From IMG/VR virus record IMGVR_UViG_3300022845_000018, positions 1-26,385 of that record: a stretch of DNA of 26,385 nt, one strand, 5' to 3'. The notes below the pieces were generated by a model, which saw nothing but the letters and a program-made list of their open reading frames with translations, ran no database searches and had not been told where the DNA came from. Positions 2,001 through 9,058 of this stretch are shown here, piece by piece; the stretch's first letter is position 1; each line of letters begins with the position of its first letter. The translations under genes were made by a program, and so were the position numbers. This stretch comes from a virus.

Positions 2001-2086
2001 TTGGTCAGTCTGCTCCTCTGTAGGGTGGACGACAGCCCCGCATGGAGTATATCAAAGGCTGACGCTGTAAGTCCGACCCGCATCAT
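1997..2086 (-). CDS. micro-ORF, 29 aa, coupled at both ends
   Basis: This short frame (MMRVGLTASAFDILHAGLSS and on) exactly bridges the gap between the metallopeptidase/VWA gene and the 77-aa gene. Its ATG at 2086 overlaps the upstream TGA as ATGA, and its own TGA (1999-1997) overlaps the next ATG in the same way. It could be a coupling peptide that keeps ribosomes moving through the operon. It has no recognisable domain, and chance cannot be excluded for 29 codons. Confidence 0.4.
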   Translation of the reverse strand: MMRVGLTASAFDILHAGLSSTLQRSRLTK

Positions 2087-3192
2087 TCCATCTCCACGAT
2101 CTCGCCGAACGGCGCGCTTGTTGCTCCGGTCGTCACCCACAGCACAGGGCAGTCAGGTGCGTCACCGAAGTCATGACAGTACAGGTCGGTGAGGAACACG
2201 ATACCAGCGGGGTCAATACCCTGCTCCTCGATGTGCTTGAACACAGGGCTGAACGCTGTACCACCACCGCCACGTGGGTTGAACTCGAAGTCACCGTCAC
2301 GCTCGATGGTGTCATAAGCACAGACCTCGTGGCTAAAGAAGATGAAGTGTATCTTGGACGGCTTGCCGTCCTCGAATACCTGCCGACACTCCGCTGCGTA
2401 CTGGTTCTTCTCGGCATCGCTGATCGAGCCAGACATATCCACGGCGAACACCAACTCACCTAGCACCTCGCCACTGGTTGAGGGCATGTACAGTCCTTGG
2501 CTCAGGAACCTGCGGTTGGGTCTGGCGAAGGTACGCTGGTCGTTCTTGGCCTTCTGCACGAACCGTTGCAGCACGTCGCGCCAGTCCACCTTGGGCTTGA
2601 GTACCTCGTCGACGAGTCGGGCCATGTTGGCGCTCAGTTTATCTATCATCTTGGCAGCCTGCGCCGCTTGGGCCACCTTGATCTTCCACTCGGCAGCCTC
2701 TTGAGCCTGCTCAGCTTGGCCACCCTCGCCGTCCTCAAGGTCGTTACCAGTACCGCCGATACCGTCGCTGTCACCGTCACCATCGGTGTCTGGCAACAGG
2801 CTGTAGATACCATCGCTCGTACCACCGCCGTTGGTGTAGATGGTCTGGTCGAGACAGCCACCCTCGATGAACTTGCCGATGCCCTCGTCCACCAGTAGCT
2901 GGTTGATGACGTAGTCGGCGGCCTTGTTCCACTTCTTGGGGTCACGGGCACCACGTCGGTAGTTGTGCTCCAGCATGGGATGCAGACACTCATGGGCCAC
3001 AAGGAACTTGAGTTCCTCGTCAGTCAGCGGCTCGATGAAGTCGGGGTTGTACAGCACACGCTTGCCATTGGTGGCTGCCGTAGGCACCTCGTCGCTCAGT
3101 GACATGGGCATGTTGAGTGCCACGCTGCCAATGAAGGGGTGCTCTAGGATCAGGCTGGTCTTGGCCTTGCTCAGTCGTTCCATCGGGTCCAT
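2083..3192 (-). CDS. DUF2201-type metallopeptidase plus von Willebrand factor A protein, 369 aa
   Basis: The N-terminal half (1-100) resembles the putative metallopeptidase domain of DUF2201: zinc-binding HECLH at 67-71 and AADYVIN at 91-97, which supplies a likely third ligand (D93). An acidic, glycine-rich linker (~134-160) has DTDGDGDSDG, reminiscent of a calcium-binding loop. The C-terminal half is a VWA-like domain with the MIDAS motif DMSGS (252-256), a downstream GGGGT (T312) and TD at 335-336. VWA proteins of this kind work with MoxR/CobS AAA+ ATPases. Such an ATPase (5488-6483) and a DUF3150 protein (4379-5242) lie in the same leftward arm, so a remodelling or chelatase-like complex is a reasonable inference. 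The start overlaps the upstream stop (TGATG). The first 97 codons are duplicated exactly at 3609-3919. Confidence 0.87.
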   Translation of the reverse strand: MDPMERLSKAKTSLILEHPFIGSVALNMPMSLSDEVPTAATNGKRVLYNPDFIEPLTDEELKFLVAHECLHPMLEHNYRRGARDPKKWNKAADYVINQLLVDEGIGKFIEGGCLDQTIYTNGGGTSDGIYSLLPDTDGDGDSDGIGGTGNDLEDGEGGQAEQAQEAAEWKIKVAQAAQAAKMIDKLSANMARLVDEVLKPKVDWRDVLQRFVQKAKNDQRTFARPNRRFLSQGLYMPSTSGEVLGELVFAVDMSGSISDAEKNQYAAECRQVFEDGKPSKIHFIFFSHEVCAYDTIERDGDFEFNPRGGGGTAFSPVFKHIEEQGIDPAGIVFLTDLYCHDFGDAPDCPVLWVTTGATSAPFGEIVEME

Positions 3193-3210
3193 CAGTTTTT
3201 CTCCAGTTCT
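2900..3210. repeat. 311-bp exact direct repeat, copy 1
   Basis: Reading base by base I found no difference between this segment and 3609-3919 (offset 709). It covers codons 1-97 of the metallopeptidase/VWA gene, its start codon and about the last 20 nt of the gene upstream. This copy is in the intact gene. Confidence 0.93.
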
Positions 3211-3338
3211 GCTTGCTCTTGGGCCGTGGCCTTACGGATCACGACAGCGTTCCACACAGCGGCGCTGTCCTGTGCTTCGGCGTCATTAGCTGCCTCAGAC
3301 CAGAACTCCTCGCCGTCTTCTTTCATCAGGTAAAACAT
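3192..3338 (-). CDS. small protein, 48 aa, upstream of the metallopeptidase/VWA gene
   Basis: The frame MFYLMKEDGEEFWSEAANDA to AELEKN is short but well placed. An AGGAAGGAAGTAA site lies upstream, and its TGA overlaps the VWA start (TGATG). The N-terminus (FYLMKEDGEEFW, then WNAVVIRKAT) looks like a small beta-hairpin domain and the end is helical. Its last residues ELEKN are shared with the 52-aa gene at 3901-4059 because the 311-bp duplication begins inside this C-terminus. Function is unknown. Confidence 0.62.
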   Translation of the reverse strand: MFYLMKEDGEEFWSEAANDAEAQDSAAVWNAVVIRKATAQEQAELEKN

Positions 3339-3341
3339 CAG

Positions 3342-3569
3342 TTACTTCCTTCCTTTGATACGTTCGGCAGCCATGTAGGACACGGCTACCTCGTTGGTTT
3401 CATCCACAATCTGGTTGAACCCATCTACAAAAGCTGCGATACGCGACAGCCCGAACTCGTCGGGCCTAGTCTTGAATATGTCGGCTATCTTGCCTGCTTC
3501 TGCGGCCATAAGGCAGAACTGGTCTGCTAGTACGAGCTCTGCCCCACGTTTTGCTAAGTTTACCGCCAC
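3342..3569 (-). CDS. small helical protein, 75 aa, GTG start
   Basis: I chose the GTG at 3569-3567, spaced correctly behind GGAGGACTGAA. The same arrangement (GGAGGATTGAA then GTG) starts the 107-aa gene at 4382. The protein (MAVNLAKRGAELVLADQF to SYMAAERIKGRK) is predicted almost all helical. Its start region overlaps the end of the chimeric metallopeptidase fragment by 10 nt. The reading frame extends further upstream, but only through the duplicated tail of the neighbouring gene. No family recognised. Confidence 0.62.
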   Translation of the reverse strand: MAVNLAKRGAELVLADQFCLMAAEAGKIADIFKTRPDEFGLSRIAAFVDGFNQIVDETNEVAVSYMAAERIKGRK

Positions 3570-3901
3570 TTCAGTCCTCCCATAAAGGCTGCCATCTTGG
3601 CAGCGATTTGGTTGATGACGTAGTCGGCGGCCTTGTTCCACTTCTTGGGGTCACGGGCACCACGTCGGTAGTTGTGCTCCAGCATGGGATGCAGACACTC
3701 ATGGGCCACAAGGAACTTGAGTTCCTCGTCAGTCAGCGGCTCGATGAAGTCGGGGTTGTACAGCACACGCTTGCCATTGGTGGCTGCCGTAGGCACCTCG
3801 TCGCTCAGTGACATGGGCATGTTGAGTGCCACGCTGCCAATGAAGGGGTGCTCTAGGATCAGGCTGGTCTTGGCCTTGCTCAGTCGTTCCATCGGGTCCA
3901 T
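3560..3901 (-). pseudogene. chimeric, truncated copy of the metallopeptidase/VWA gene, 113 aa
   Basis: Residues 1-97 are identical in DNA and protein to the N-terminus of the 369-aa protein, including HECLH (67-71) and D93. The frame then switches to IAAKMAAFMGGLKWR. That is a near copy of the C-terminus of the DUF3150 protein (IATKMAAFMGGLK at its end). The whole linker and VWA domain are missing. The open frame, the coupled start (TGATG at 3901) and the intact zinc motif leave open that a free metallopeptidase-domain protein is made. Its origin by segmental duplication joined to a neighbouring gene end is clear from the sequence. An assembly artefact should also be considered. Confidence 0.8.
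3567..3609. repeat. 43-bp imperfect direct repeat, copy 1
   Basis: This segment matches 4380-4422 with two mismatches (3574 and 3601; offset 813). It contains the last codons of the DUF3150 gene together with the ribosome binding site and GTG start of the gene that follows. It abuts the 311-bp repeat at 3609, so the two repeats meet at the chimera junction. Confidence 0.88.
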
Positions 3902-3919
3902 CAGTTTTTCTCCAGTTCT
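3609..3919. repeat. 311-bp exact direct repeat, copy 2
   Basis: This is identical to 2900-3210 as far as I can read. It begins at the chimera junction and ends inside the last codons of the 52-aa gene (shared ELEKN and TGATG). The absence of any mismatch over 311 bp means the duplication is recent, kept identical by recombination, or an assembly error. Confidence 0.93.
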
Positions 3920-4059
3920 TCAATTAGTCCACGCACTACGTCTATGGCCTCGTGTAAGTTGTCGATCTCGGTGACATTGCAGCCGTAGTGTGGCTGCTCG
4001 GCAGCGGACACTGCCCACCTCAGTCTGGCCTTGACATACTCCTTGTCAAAGGTGGTCAT
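3901..4059 (-). CDS. small protein, 52 aa
   Basis: The sequence MTTFDKEYVKARLRWAVSAA to RGLIEELEKN starts at an ATG that overlaps the upstream stop by one base (TGATG) and ends with the same overlap on the chimeric gene. It is predicted helical (VKARLRWAVSAAE; NLHEAIDVVRGLIEELEKN). Its C-terminal codons are the right end of the 311-bp duplication. Function is unknown. Confidence 0.62.
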   Translation of the reverse strand: MTTFDKEYVKARLRWAVSAAEQPHYGCNVTEIDNLHEAIDVVRGLIEELEKN

Positions 4060-4382
4060 CAGGCTCCCTCCCTCTTTTTGTGTCGTTCATACCTGACCCG
4101 TATGTCGTCGGGCCACAGGTCCAGTGGCACGTCGGTCAGTTTCTTACGGGCCACCTCCTCACCATCCAGCTGGACAGCGAAATCTGTGCCTTGCCAAGGG
4201 GCGACCATCCTGCCGCTCTCGTAGACACGAACAGCCAGCTTGCCCTTGATCTGGTTGGGGTGCACACCGACCACGTTGGCCAGCATGTACGCCCGCTTGA
4301 GTTTGCGCAGCAGTTCGACCTTCTCAAGTTCTAGTTCGATCAGTCGGTCCACCCGCTCGAACAGCTTGTCAGGTAGTGTCAC
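4059..4382 (-). CDS. phage protein of unknown function, 107 aa, GTG start
   Basis: The GTG start at 4382 overlaps the DUF3150 stop (GTGA) and has GGAGGATTGAA upstream. The N-terminal ~35 residues form a helical, leucine-rich segment (LFERVDRLIELELEKVELLRKLKRAYML). The rest appears beta-rich (GKLAVRVYESGRMVAPW, then TDFAVQLDGEEVARKKL) and ends with a basic helix. Its place directly after the DUF3150 gene suggests a partner role, but I recognise no domain. Confidence 0.72.
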   Translation of the reverse strand: MTLPDKLFERVDRLIELELEKVELLRKLKRAYMLANVVGVHPNQIKGKLAVRVYESGRMVAPWQGTDFAVQLDGEEVARKKLTDVPLDLWPDDIRVRYERHKKREGA

Positions 4383-5242
4383 TTCAATCCTCCCATAAAG
4401 GCTGCCATCTTGGTAGCGATTTCGTTGGCCTCGTCGATCTTGGTCTGTCGGAACGTGGTGTTCATCACAACGCTGTCCTTGCTCAGTCCGGCCAGCTTAC
4501 CCTCAACCTCTTGACGCATAGCCTCAAGGTTGGGATCGTCCATCACGTTGAGCCGTGGCAGCAGGTCACACAGGTCGGTGATGTTATCCAGTGTGCTCTC
4601 GTGGAACCGTGCCTTGGGGTCGTCCAGCTTGGCCAGACGGTCCGCCATGTGGACCACCCTGTCGTAGAGCCGCTGCCATACCTCTTGCATAGCACCAGTC
4701 GCAGCCTGCTTTACACGGGCCTCGACCTCGTCTTGGATACGGGACAGCTCAGCGTCAGCGATGTTCACTCTGAAGTCGTTGTTGGGTACTGGCATGACAC
4801 CAAGGTCCATCTTGAACTTGTCGCTGATCTCGCTGGCATCGGGGTAGTCCTCGACCTTGTACGCTGAGCCAAGGAAGTGCTGTGCATCCTGCACAAGCTG
4901 CGGATACTCTGGTACAAAGCGCCGTACCAGCATCTCGTACTCGCTACGTTCCTTGCGGAAGTCGGTCATAAAGGTGAGGTAGTTGGCAGTCGGCAGGATT
5001 TGGATACCCTTCACACCCCACGGCAGGGTGTTCTCGTAGAACTTGGTGCGGATCAGGCTGGCTTTCTTCTTGATGTCGTCCAGCAGGTCACACATTGGCA
5101 GCAGGCTCTTGTGAGAGCGGACAGAACCAGAGATGGCACCCTTGTTGCGGGTGGTCTCGGTGCTGATCTCCTTGTCCAGCTTGTTGGCAGACCACGTGGA
5201 GATGTTGAGCTGCACAAGCAGTGCTCGGTCAGATAGTTGCAT
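4379..5242 (-). CDS. DUF3150 family protein, 287 aa
   Basis: The features match my memory of DUF3150: an early LDKEIS segment (~22-28), KSLLPMCDLLDDI (~45-57), then RTKFYENTLPWGVKGIQILP and YLTFMTDFRKER, a middle LVQDAQHFLG...DYPDASEISDKF region and PVPNNDFRVNI. The C-terminal third is predicted coiled-coil. Members of this family typically occur beside MoxR/CobS-type AAA+ ATPases and VWA proteins in phages and bacteria, as here. Its biochemical role is not known, and an adaptor or substrate-binding role is my inference. The start has GAAGGACTGATATA upstream. The stop overlaps the next GTG start. Confidence 0.85.
   Translation of the reverse strand: MQLSDRALLVQLNISTWSANKLDKEISTETTRNKGAISGSVRSHKSLLPMCDLLDDIKKKASLIRTKFYENTLPWGVKGIQILPTANYLTFMTDFRKERSEYEMLVRRFVPEYPQLVQDAQHFLGSAYKVEDYPDASEISDKFKMDLGVMPVPNNDFRVNIADAELSRIQDEVEARVKQAATGAMQEVWQRLYDRVVHMADRLAKLDDPKARFHESTLDNITDLCDLLPRLNVMDDPNLEAMRQEVEGKLAGLSKDSVVMNTTFRQTKIDEANEIATKMAAFMGGLK
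4380..4422. repeat. 43-bp imperfect direct repeat, copy 2
   Basis: This is the counterpart of 3567-3609, here in its apparent original place: the end of the DUF3150 gene plus the GTG start of the 107-aa gene. Two mismatches separate the copies, so they are older or of different origin than the exact 311-bp pair. Confidence 0.88.
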
Positions 5243-5246
5243 TATA

Positions 5247-5501
5247 TCAGTCCTTCTTTAAGGTTGGTGCGGCTCCGGTCAGTCGGAGATACGCTTGATA
5301 GGCCAGCACTTTGCGTGCGTATCTGCTGGCGACGAACTGGTCCCACGTGGTGGGCTCAGTGGTGAAGCCTATATTCATTGCGGCTTCTTTGCGGTACTTG
5401 ACCCACTCCTCGGCGAGGCCGTCGAGTTCCGCGTCAGCGATCTGTCCACTGGTACGCAACCAGTGGACAAACGTCGGCCTCTTGGGCTCAAAAGAGGACA
5501 T
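5247..5501 (-). CDS. small protein between the AAA+ ATPase and DUF3150 genes, 84 aa
   Basis: I chose the ATG at 5501 (MSSFEPKRPTFVHWL), which overlaps the ATPase gene by 14 nt. A longer upstream frame would run through that gene. The protein is mostly helical (IADAELDGLAEEWVKYRKEA; WDQFVASRYARKVLAYQAYL) with no cysteine or catalytic motif. Its conserved place inside the ATPase/DUF3150 gene pair suggests a role with that machine. I do not recognise the family. Confidence 0.72.
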   Translation of the reverse strand: MSSFEPKRPTFVHWLRTSGQIADAELDGLAEEWVKYRKEAAMNIGFTTEPTTWDQFVASRYARKVLAYQAYLRLTGAAPTLKKD

Positions 5502-6483
5502 CTTGGTGCGCCCATGCCCAGCGAGTAAAGGCCTGTGTGTTGGCCAGATCGGGTGTCTTGCGGACAGCATGGGAGATGCTAAGGACCGAGAACTCGGCAG
5601 GCATACGGCCGGTGTAGGTCACAACACGTTCCAAGTTGGCCTCGGTGGCACGGTCAGCCAAGGCACCGGACAAGGCGTAGAGTGTGGCCGGGTCAGTCGG
5701 TACCTCTGCCGTATCGGGGTTGATGAGAATAGCATCGGGGTTGGGCAGCTTACGGTAGATACGCACAAACCCAACAAACTCAGCTGCGGCACCCTCACCA
5801 ATGGCACCCTTGAAGCACTCGTACTCTGCCTCGGCTGGCACGTTGCCAAGCACTGCACTGACACCCTCGACCCATGACCGTGGTGTCGGGTTGACGTCAC
5901 GCTGTGGGTCGAAGTCATGCAGCAAGTGAGGCCGGAACCGTGTGAAGGCGATGACCATGGGGTGTACGGCGTTGTCGATCATCCACTGTGTGCTGTCGTC
6001 GAGGTGTGTCTCGAACTCAAGCACGGTCTCACGGTTACGCAAGTGGCTCAAAACACGGTTGGCACCAGCCCTGTCGGACTGCCTGTTACCCGTTGACACC
6101 ACCGTCCACCCATTGGCCAAGGGCTTGCCGTGTAGGGTCCGAGCCTGCTGGATGTTGGCCAGTACCTTCTGTAGGTCGGCGTTGGCTTGGTTCCGATCGT
6201 CGAACAGTAGGATACCACCGCGCTCGGTGCCGGCCTTGCCCTTGAATGGGAACCATTCGGGCAGCTTGTAGCTGAAGCTGTCGCCGGCAGCGTCGGGGTA
6301 GGGTATCCCAAAGTCCTCGACCAGCATGGTCGGCATGTGCCGCTCCACGACAGGTAACCCCATAGCCTCGGCCACCTCATGGACAATGGTGGTCTTACCA
6401 CCCCCCGGAGGCCCCTCGATAGCTACGGATCGACCGAGTGGAATCAGCGACTTGAGTGTGTCTTTGAGTAATTTAGCACGCAT
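5488..6483 (-). CDS. MoxR/CobS-type AAA+ ATPase, 331 aa
   Basis: The protein has Walker A GPPGGGKT at 24-31, Walker B ILLFDD at 91-96 and a sensor-1-like VVSTGNRQSDRAG with N133. An RNR stretch at ~149-151 may supply an arginine finger. The second acidic Walker B residue is Asp (D96) instead of the usual Glu, followed by RNQA where MoxR proteins usually have INRA. These ATPases form hexameric rings that remodel a substrate through a VWA partner. The DUF3150 and DUF2201/VWA genes downstream supply that context. The ATG at 6483 follows AGGAGCCGCAA. The mRNA leader carries a hammerhead ribozyme (6506-6563), so this gene is probably translated from a self-processed transcript. Confidence 0.9.
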   Translation of the reverse strand: MRAKLLKDTLKSLIPLGRSVAIEGPPGGGKTTIVHEVAEAMGLPVVERHMPTMLVEDFGIPYPDAAGDSFSYKLPEWFPFKGKAGTERGGILLFDDRNQANADLQKVLANIQQARTLHGKPLANGWTVVSTGNRQSDRAGANRVLSHLRNRETVLEFETHLDDSTQWMIDNAVHPMVIAFTRFRPHLLHDFDPQRDVNPTPRSWVEGVSAVLGNVPAEAEYECFKGAIGEGAAAEFVGFVRIYRKLPNPDAILINPDTAEVPTDPATLYALSGALADRATEANLERVVTYTGRMPAEFSVLSISHAVRKTPDLANTQAFTRWAWAHQDVLF

Positions 6484-6505: not shown

Positions 6506-6563
6506 TGTCTCATCAGTGACATGGGTGCCACCCATGCCAGACGCCCCGTAGGGCGTTTCGACA
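6506..6563 (-). ncRNA. type II hammerhead ribozyme, upstream of the AAA+ gene (HHR-B)
   Basis: Read on the minus strand: stem II strand UGUC (6563-6560); GAAA (6559-6556); stem III CGCCC (6555-6551), UACG loop, GGGCG (6546-6542); U16.1 (6541) pairing A15.1; C17 (6540); stem I of ten pairs with one G-U (6539-6530 with 6526-6517) closed by GGC; CUGAUGA (6516-6510); stem II strand GACA (6509-6506). Every invariant core base of the hammerhead is present. Stem II is the open helix, which makes it type II. The C(UACG)G loop is an exceptionally stable tetraloop. Predicted cleavage is between 6540 and 6539, leaving the AAA+ mRNA with a 5' stem-loop. Confidence 0.9.
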
Positions 6564-6567
6564 TATG

Positions 6568-7368
6568 TCAGTGGTCCTTGATCTGGTTCAAGGCGTTGGT
6601 CATATTGGTGTAGCTGTCGAAATACTCATACATCTTGCTGTCGTAGCACATCTCGTACTTGTAGACAGCTTCACGGAGGCTACGCAGCTCCTGCTCCAAC
6701 GGCACACGGTTAGAGAAGCGGGCAGCGATCTCAGCCCAACCAGTCTCACCTTGCTTGAGGTAGGCCATAGCCTCTCGTGGTGTCCATGAGAACGCACCGC
6801 CCCAACGGGGGGCAAGTGGACACAAGTTGAGACGAATACGTGTCTCCAACCATAGCTTGAACGTGTAGTAGTTGCTGTCCTTGAGGGCCTGCTTGCCCTC
6901 TTTACGGTTGAGACACGGCACCTCGATGGGCTTGTTACCATCGACGAGTTCCCAACCAGTCTCCTTGGGCTGGACCACGGCGAAGGACGGGGTTTTGTAG
7001 TACCGACCACCCACTTCGGTGATGAGGCCCTTGTCTGACCAGTGGGTATTCACATAGGGCCCGAGGACTAACCACATGACGCGGTTGGTCAGGATAGAGG
7101 GGTAAGGGTCGAGGACAATAGGGGACAGGTCGTTGTCACCAGCAGCTTGGTAGGTGTAGCGGATAATATCCGTGGAGTAGAGCCGGACCAGTATGTCACT
7201 GGTCGTTGGCTCCATCCGGATGGTCAGGTTGTCGCTACCACGGTTGGTCAGTGGCCTTGTGTTCTGGTCTGACCGACCACGGATAGGCTTGATGGAGTTG
7301 TACTTGAGCAGTGCTGTGTTGTAGGACAGCATATGGTGGGATGGTAACTCGATGTTTCTTCCGAACAT
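6568..7368 (-). CDS. phage protein of unknown function, 266 aa, flanked by ribozymes
   Basis: I start it at the ATG at 7368 (MFGRNIELPSHH), which has a perfect AAGGAGATCAACT site. An in-frame ATG at 7455 would translate through the hammerhead structure and is unlikely. The protein is soluble-looking, with a basic middle region (RYYKTPSFAVVQPKETGWELVD), an aromatic stretch (APRWGGAFSWTPREAMAYL) and a C-terminal acidic, tyrosine-rich helix (YKYEMCYDSKMYEYFDSYTN). I recognise no domain. A predicted self-cleaving ribozyme lies immediately before and after the gene, so its message may be released as a separate RNA, which sets it apart from its neighbours. Confidence 0.8.
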   Translation of the reverse strand: MFGRNIELPSHHMLSYNTALLKYNSIKPIRGRSDQNTRPLTNRGSDNLTIRMEPTTSDILVRLYSTDIIRYTYQAAGDNDLSPIVLDPYPSILTNRVMWLVLGPYVNTHWSDKGLITEVGGRYYKTPSFAVVQPKETGWELVDGNKPIEVPCLNRKEGKQALKDSNYYTFKLWLETRIRLNLCPLAPRWGGAFSWTPREAMAYLKQGETGWAEIAARFSNRVPLEQELRSLREAVYKYEMCYDSKMYEYFDSYTNMTNALNQIKDH

Positions 7369-7388
7369 TAGTTGATCTCCTTGGGCTT

Positions 7389-7450
7389 GTCTCGTCAGTG
7401 CCGTGGTAGCCAACCACGGCAGACAGACCACCTTGGTGGTCTGTTTCGAC
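7389..7450 (-). ncRNA. type II hammerhead ribozyme, upstream of the 266-aa gene (HHR-A)
   Basis: Read on the minus strand: stem II strand GUC (7450-7448); GAAA (7447-7444); stem III CAGACCACC (7443-7435) with GGUGGUCUG (7432-7424), two-base AA turn as drawn; U16.1 (7423); C17 (7422); stem I UGCCGUGGU (7421-7413), loop UGGCU, ACCACGGCA (7407-7399), nine perfect pairs; CUGACGA (7398-7392); stem II strand GAC (7391-7389). All invariant core bases are present. Predicted cleavage is between 7422 and 7421. The stem III and stem I sequences differ fully from HHR-B but pair equally well. Stem II is only 3 bp. The 5' edge lies just after the stop codon of the 50-aa gene. Confidence 0.9.
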
Positions 7451-7451
7451 T

Positions 7452-7604
7452 TCATGGAACTAAGATTGCAGCGTAGGTAGCACCGAACCTATCGGCGACG
7501 TGCTTCCGTAGAAGCGCCTTGTCTACAGGCTGACCAAGCTGTTCACACTTGGTGCGGTACTGGTTGGTGTAGACCGCGGCGAGGTCCAGTATAATCTCGT
7601 TCAT
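7452..7604 (-). CDS. small protein, 50 aa
   Basis: The frame MNEIILDLAAVYTNQYRTKC to FGATYAAILVP begins at an ATG that overlaps the upstream TGA by one base (TGATG) behind AAGGAGATCAACT. It ends one base before the 5' strand of hammerhead HHR-A. It is largely helical with one cysteine and matches no family I know. The strong ribosome binding site is nearly identical to that of the 266-aa gene. Confidence 0.65.
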   Translation of the reverse strand: MNEIILDLAAVYTNQYRTKCEQLGQPVDKALLRKHVADRFGATYAAILVP

Positions 7605-8830: not shown

Positions 8831-9005
8831 AATACCCCCCGACTAATGCTGTCAAGTATGCGCGCACCCTAAATCCCCCCGACGTATGCCGAGAGAAACG
8901 AGGTGGTTGTTCACGGGCTGCGAGGTACCGCTTGGCTTCCAACTGACCGATGCGGCTAACATAGCCGTCGTACTGCCGCAGTTTCTTATCAATGCGTGGT
9001 GCCAT
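8787..9005 (-). CDS. small basic protein, 72 aa
   Basis: The ATG at 9005 (MAPRIDKKLRQYDGYVSRIG) follows AGGAGAAAAATACT, a leader shared almost exactly with the preceding gene. The first 50 residues are basic and protein-like. The last 15 (GGYLSTLVVYTYTIHVY) read through the GTATAC palindrome region, which is odd for a protein end. It shares the short LEAKR word with the 82-aa protein just upstream. Function is unknown, and a DNA-binding role would only be a guess from the charge. Confidence 0.55.
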   Translation of the reverse strand: MAPRIDKKLRQYDGYVSRIGQLEAKRYLAAREQPPRFSRHTSGGFRVRAYLTALVGGYLSTLVVYTYTIHVY

Positions 9006-9028
9006 AGTATTTTTCTCCTGATTAAAGG

Positions 9029-9052
9029 CGGCCAGCCCTTGCAGGCTGGCCG
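9029..9052 (-). other. hairpin in the leader of the 72-aa gene
   Basis: CGGCCAGCC and GGCTGGCCG form a 9-bp stem around a 6-nt loop, followed on the minus strand by CCTTTAATCAGGAGAAAAATACT and the ATG. There is no uridine run, so a simple terminator is unlikely. A second copy of the cassette precedes the 82-aa gene. RNase III processing or mRNA stabilisation are possible roles. Confidence 0.7.
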
Positions 9053-9058
9053 TTAGTT

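Follow-up and report, generated by a model that had tools for sequence, protein, structure and literature searches.

Two type II hammerhead ribozymes bracket a single phage gene

In this uncultured phage, the gene for a 266-aa protein is bracketed by two genuine type II hammerhead ribozymes, Rz1 and Rz2, which are very probably active and which we consider likely to act as punctuation of the transcript. The window, that is the whole stretch of DNA analysed, is an entire virus record of 26,385 bases in which terminase, portal and tail fibre genes are present (features of the locus in Table 1). Both ribozymes exceed the RF02276 gathering score of 37 bits and cover all 66 positions of the model. 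They have the type II architecture, in which loops close stems I and III and stem II is left open, and their stems are conserved. A GUC, an NUH-type site, lies at both predicted cut positions and self-cleavage is predicted. Read from the sequence, the cuts would fall at GUC^U, between C7422 and U7421 in Rz1 and between C6540 and U6539 in Rz2.

When searching the window with an independent descriptor, Rz1 and Rz2 were the sole matches, and 300 dinucleotide shuffles gave none on either strand. The two elements are not chance occurrences. No further Rfam families were found in the window, and a promoter-like match at 6522-6495 as well as the terminator-like sites were near chance level. As in the clustered hammerheads of Perreault et al. 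(2011), two same-strand hammerheads flank one gene in a phage.

Table 1. Ribozymes, genes and predicted RNA at the locus (window positions).
Feature	Position	Strand	Details
50-aa ORF	7604-7452	-	Precedes Rz1
Rz1, type II hammerhead	about 7451-7380	-	Rfam RF02276, 44.5 bits; model R1, 83 bits; covariation. Stem II GUC/GAC; stem III closed hairpin; GUC^U; stem I closed hairpin; CUGACGA core
Rz1 pseudoknot	7411-7408 with 7387-7384	-	Loop GGCU with AGCC
266-aa gene	7368-6568	-	Shine-Dalgarno AAGGAG
Rz2, type II hammerhead	about 6563-6498	-	Rfam RF02276, 38.6 bits; model R1, 72.4 bits; sequence
Rz2 pseudoknot	6530-6527 with 6504-6501	-	UGGC with GCCA
AAA+ ATPase gene	6483-5488	-	phrog_1297, related to N4 gp24
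Predicted released RNA, 882 nt	7421-6540	-	From cut sites and interval analysis; 266-aa ORF as sole gene. Leader of 53 nt, expected to begin with the stem I hairpin and a 5'-OH; tail of 28 nt, expected to end with the stem III hairpin and a 2',3'-cyclic phosphate (end chemistry from the known hammerhead mechanism)

The first-pass annotation of this DNA had proposed two ribozymes around one gene, and the above-gathering RF02276 matches, the descriptor, covariation, intact cores and the conserved layout all bear this out. Its predicted cuts and the 882-nt interval holding only the 266-aa gene are correct to the base. It had placed stem II 1-5 nt past the upstream stop codon, and the gaps are indeed 1 nt at Rz1 and 5 nt at Rz2. 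The hairpin ends that it predicted for the resulting RNAs are supported by covariation, intact cores and the conserved layout.

The frame of the 266-aa gene also has an ATG at 7455, which would give 295 aa by reading through Rz1 and has no Shine-Dalgarno sequence; the start at 7368 is the likely one. The predicted structure of the protein is a confident model (pLDDT 89.5). We found no Pfam or PHROG match and no significant PDB fold match, and its structural matches are uncharacterised phage proteins only. The start codon of the AAA+ gene lies 56 nt past the Rz2 cut. Within 2083-6483(-) of the window, the AAA+ ATPase, a weak DUF3150-like protein and a DUF2201 metallopeptidase/VWA protein share one strand and are possibly a functional set. 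Among the cultured relatives in INPHARED, we found no match to the 266-aa protein, the 50-aa protein or the eight-ribozyme array described below, and Rz1 as query returned only short stretches (E = 8).

Covariation and an intact core support functional RNAs

We compared loci that hold a relative of the 266-aa gene (L003-L012) or of the AAA+ ATPase gene (L013-L082). Hammerheads are found at the corresponding junctions, all sense to the genes, and every hammerhead match in the AAA+ clade is sense. We aligned 28 ribozymes by sequence only. In this alignment 99.3% of cells are paired (98.2-100% by helix), which is partly due to selection, as the descriptor that chose the ribozymes demands short stems and the core. 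Both-sided changes occur in 15 of 22 pairs, with 131 cells compared to a shuffled mean of 33, and pairing drops to about 31-35% when the partner is slid by one column. The pseudoknot joins loop I to the 3' flank of stem II (pairs 47-50/71-74; the register in Rz2 is shifted by one relative to these), and one of its pairs covaries, being C-G in 20 sequences and U-A in 8. Double changes and pseudoknot both lie outside the requirements of the descriptor. Moreover, a relaxed scan of the AAA+ loci on either strand gave 34 intact cores and none with one or two core changes.

Phage hammerheads share one layout between stop and start codons

IMG/VR was scanned with the fixed pattern GTCGAAAC...CACTGATGAGAC, and the matches were pooled with the loci of the relatives. 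The matches listed, together with these relatives, comprise at least 189 different type II hammerheads that share a common layout; all survey fractions refer to the matches listed and are not a census. Among them, a sense stop codon lies within -20 to +60 nt in 181 of 189 cases. A crude strand score (134 sense, 38 antisense) was dropped because it counted antisense ORFs in any frame, and the stop-codon test replaced it. In 148 of the 189 listed hammerheads the stop codon ends -2 to +4 nt from stem II, and the commonest gap is -1 nt (67/189). At this gap the ribozyme begins on the final base of the stop, most often the G of a TAG; TAG makes up 89 of the 181 stops among these matches. Of random positions, 3.9% fall within -5 to +4 nt of a stop.

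Such gaps bear on a suggestion of the first-pass annotation, that cleavage is coupled to the ribosome. On top of punctuation, a ribosome terminating on GUCGAAAC might keep the ribozyme open until its release, so that the cut is timed to translation. This is sterically plausible, since in most of the 189 listed cases GUCGAAAC would lie under the terminating ribosome. In addition, a terminator close behind a gene was almost fully repressed in E. coli (PMC4824070). However, tight packing of phage genes, taken to its limit, yields the same gaps, and we regard this added layer as a tentative possibility. Slightly more doubtful is the fuller proposal of a dedicated, translation-coupled dicing of mRNA, in which the stop is fused to the ribozyme, the terminating ribosome licenses the cut and operons of seven or more genes are converted into hairpin-ended single-gene mRNAs.

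On the downstream side, the median distance from cut to start codon is 57 nt, with 50-69 nt in 122 of 141 of the matches listed. When ORFs between neighbouring ribozymes were counted by a simple Shine-Dalgarno rule, 52 of 79 intervals among these matches held a single gene with a Shine-Dalgarno sequence, and certain intervals contained two to six genes. The largest run of consecutive hammerheads among the matches listed is an array at L094:8124-11317(+), where eight type II hammerheads lie at successive junctions of seven genes, with one small ORF per interval. For each gene of this array the leader is 55-66 nt long and the tail 24-33 nt. The predicted end hairpins are stable (medians -11.3 and -9.8 kcal/mol), and hairpins on both products fit transcript punctuation. 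Bracketing hammerheads are thus a widespread arrangement in phages with a very regular plan.

The Shine-Dalgarno sequence lies directly past the pseudoknot strand, so the cut might instead expose or mask it, or a ligand might control the ribozyme. The mean predicted exposure of the Shine-Dalgarno sequence was 0.50 uncut and 0.51 cut over 148 cases (in a model without the pseudoknot), and there is no insert of the size of an aptamer, which makes such a switch most improbable.

Retrozymes form circles and have matching ribozyme halves. By analogy, the RNA excised here could be rejoined into a circle if the 5' half of Rz2 and the 3' half of Rz1 formed a chimeric hammerhead, whose stem II (GUC/GAC) would indeed pair in the window. 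We think this very unlikely. Among the matches listed, 18 neighbouring pairs differ in stem II; both members pair fully in cis in 14 of them, whereas the chimera does so in one. Half matching of the retrozyme kind is therefore not kept across phages, although the bracketing of a segment by two hammerheads is common to both systems (PMC4918200, available text). A search of 12 phage records, several of them incomplete, gave no RtcB or RNA_ligase domain, and a host ligase could substitute.

The ribozymes are patchily distributed and Rz1 lies in an indel

In 27 of 48 rows of the AAA+ tree no hammerhead precedes the AAA+ gene, a patchy pattern with about six changes. An Rfam search of 18 relatives' loci without the hammerhead found no other ribozyme and no other family, so the cut is dispensable. 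Records of 50-62 kb, complete or nearly so, carry 0-3 ribozymes. Low-complexity repeats of the GGCTACGGC type follow the 266-aa gene in three relatives without Rz2 there (L019 after 2584, L024 after 1684 and L030 after 2965).

Rz1 and the 50-aa ORF form a segment of about 236 bp between copies of the repeat AAGGAGATCAACTRATG. The segment is missing from this position in the close relatives L015 and L027, where a 90-aa gene directly adjoins the 266-aa gene and AAGGAGATCAACTAATG is present as a single copy; the 266-aa gene would thus not be released alone there. Between the window and L014 the 50-aa ORF and Rz1 are 97-100% identical, compared to 60-83% for most flanking sequence. On L086, the contig of L027, the 50-aa ORF is found at another place between plain hairpins, so the ORF moves, whether accompanied by the ribozyme or not. 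Relatives of this ORF, 51% identical, occur in L087 and L088 (120 kb and 46 kb), and no directly adjoining ribozyme was seen. The plain hairpin GGCCAG...CTGGCC, followed by a T-rich stretch, recurs at gene junctions just 5' of ribosome-binding sites (window 9003-9058; L086:2950-3003 and 3158-3201, bracketing the 50-aa ORF).

The identity and indel patterns would also fit a role at the DNA level, the elements being recombination joints that swap small ORFs and RNA cutting being incidental. Against this, the unpaired catalytic nucleotides have not decayed and the elements lie in the sense orientation of the genes, both as RNA function demands; moreover, the 50-aa ORF is also found with no ribozyme beside it. 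We therefore hold it to be highly unlikely.

Discussion

The motifs, their covariation, the intact cores, the layout and the one-gene intervals are best explained by transcript punctuation. A ribozyme in the leftward polycistronic RNA would fold once free of the polymerase and of any ribosome still on the stop codon before it, and would then cut at GUC^U. Each internal product would carry one ORF. Judging from known hammerhead biochemistry, its 5' end would be a stem I hairpin with a 5'-OH, some 50-60 nt ahead of the start codon, and its 3' end, soon after the stop codon, a stem III hairpin bearing a 2',3'-cyclic phosphate. Such hairpin ends could allow independent translation and decay of each message, and we infer that stability or dosage may be affected.

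The processing of T7 early mRNA by RNase III is comparable, as a polycistronic phage RNA is cut between genes into hairpin-ended messages. In T7, however, a protein enzyme does the cutting, whereas here the RNA is predicted to cut itself, and the end groups differ.

The first description of hammerheads around single prophage genes dates from 2011 (Perreault et al., PMC3088659). As reported in the accessible portions of that paper, similar clusters cleave in vitro and in E. coli and imply single-gene-length mRNAs, and circles or spliced products were undetected, which also argues against a circular product here. Its clusters likewise comprise several hammerheads, including type II, around single genes or short blocks of varied identity; the window represents another phage group and another gene. 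The self-processing single-gene mRNA put forward in the first-pass annotation is backed by motifs and layout, but the same idea had appeared in print for clustered hammerheads of phages. The stop/start layout, the array statistics and the indel of ORF and ribozyme do not appear in those portions of PMC3088659, and later work in subscription journals may exist. A 2017 review noted that the ORFs flanked by these hammerheads encode small non-conserved proteins, and regarded what hammerheads do in phages and bacteria as an open question (PMC6155905).

The proposed function, release of single-gene mRNAs, is thus not new, and our analysis adds a sharper layout rule. The order of stop, ribozyme, leader and start, with arrays of up to eight ribozymes, predicts 5'-OH ends at a fixed distance of about 57 nt ahead of the start codons, and likewise messages that would terminate in stem III.
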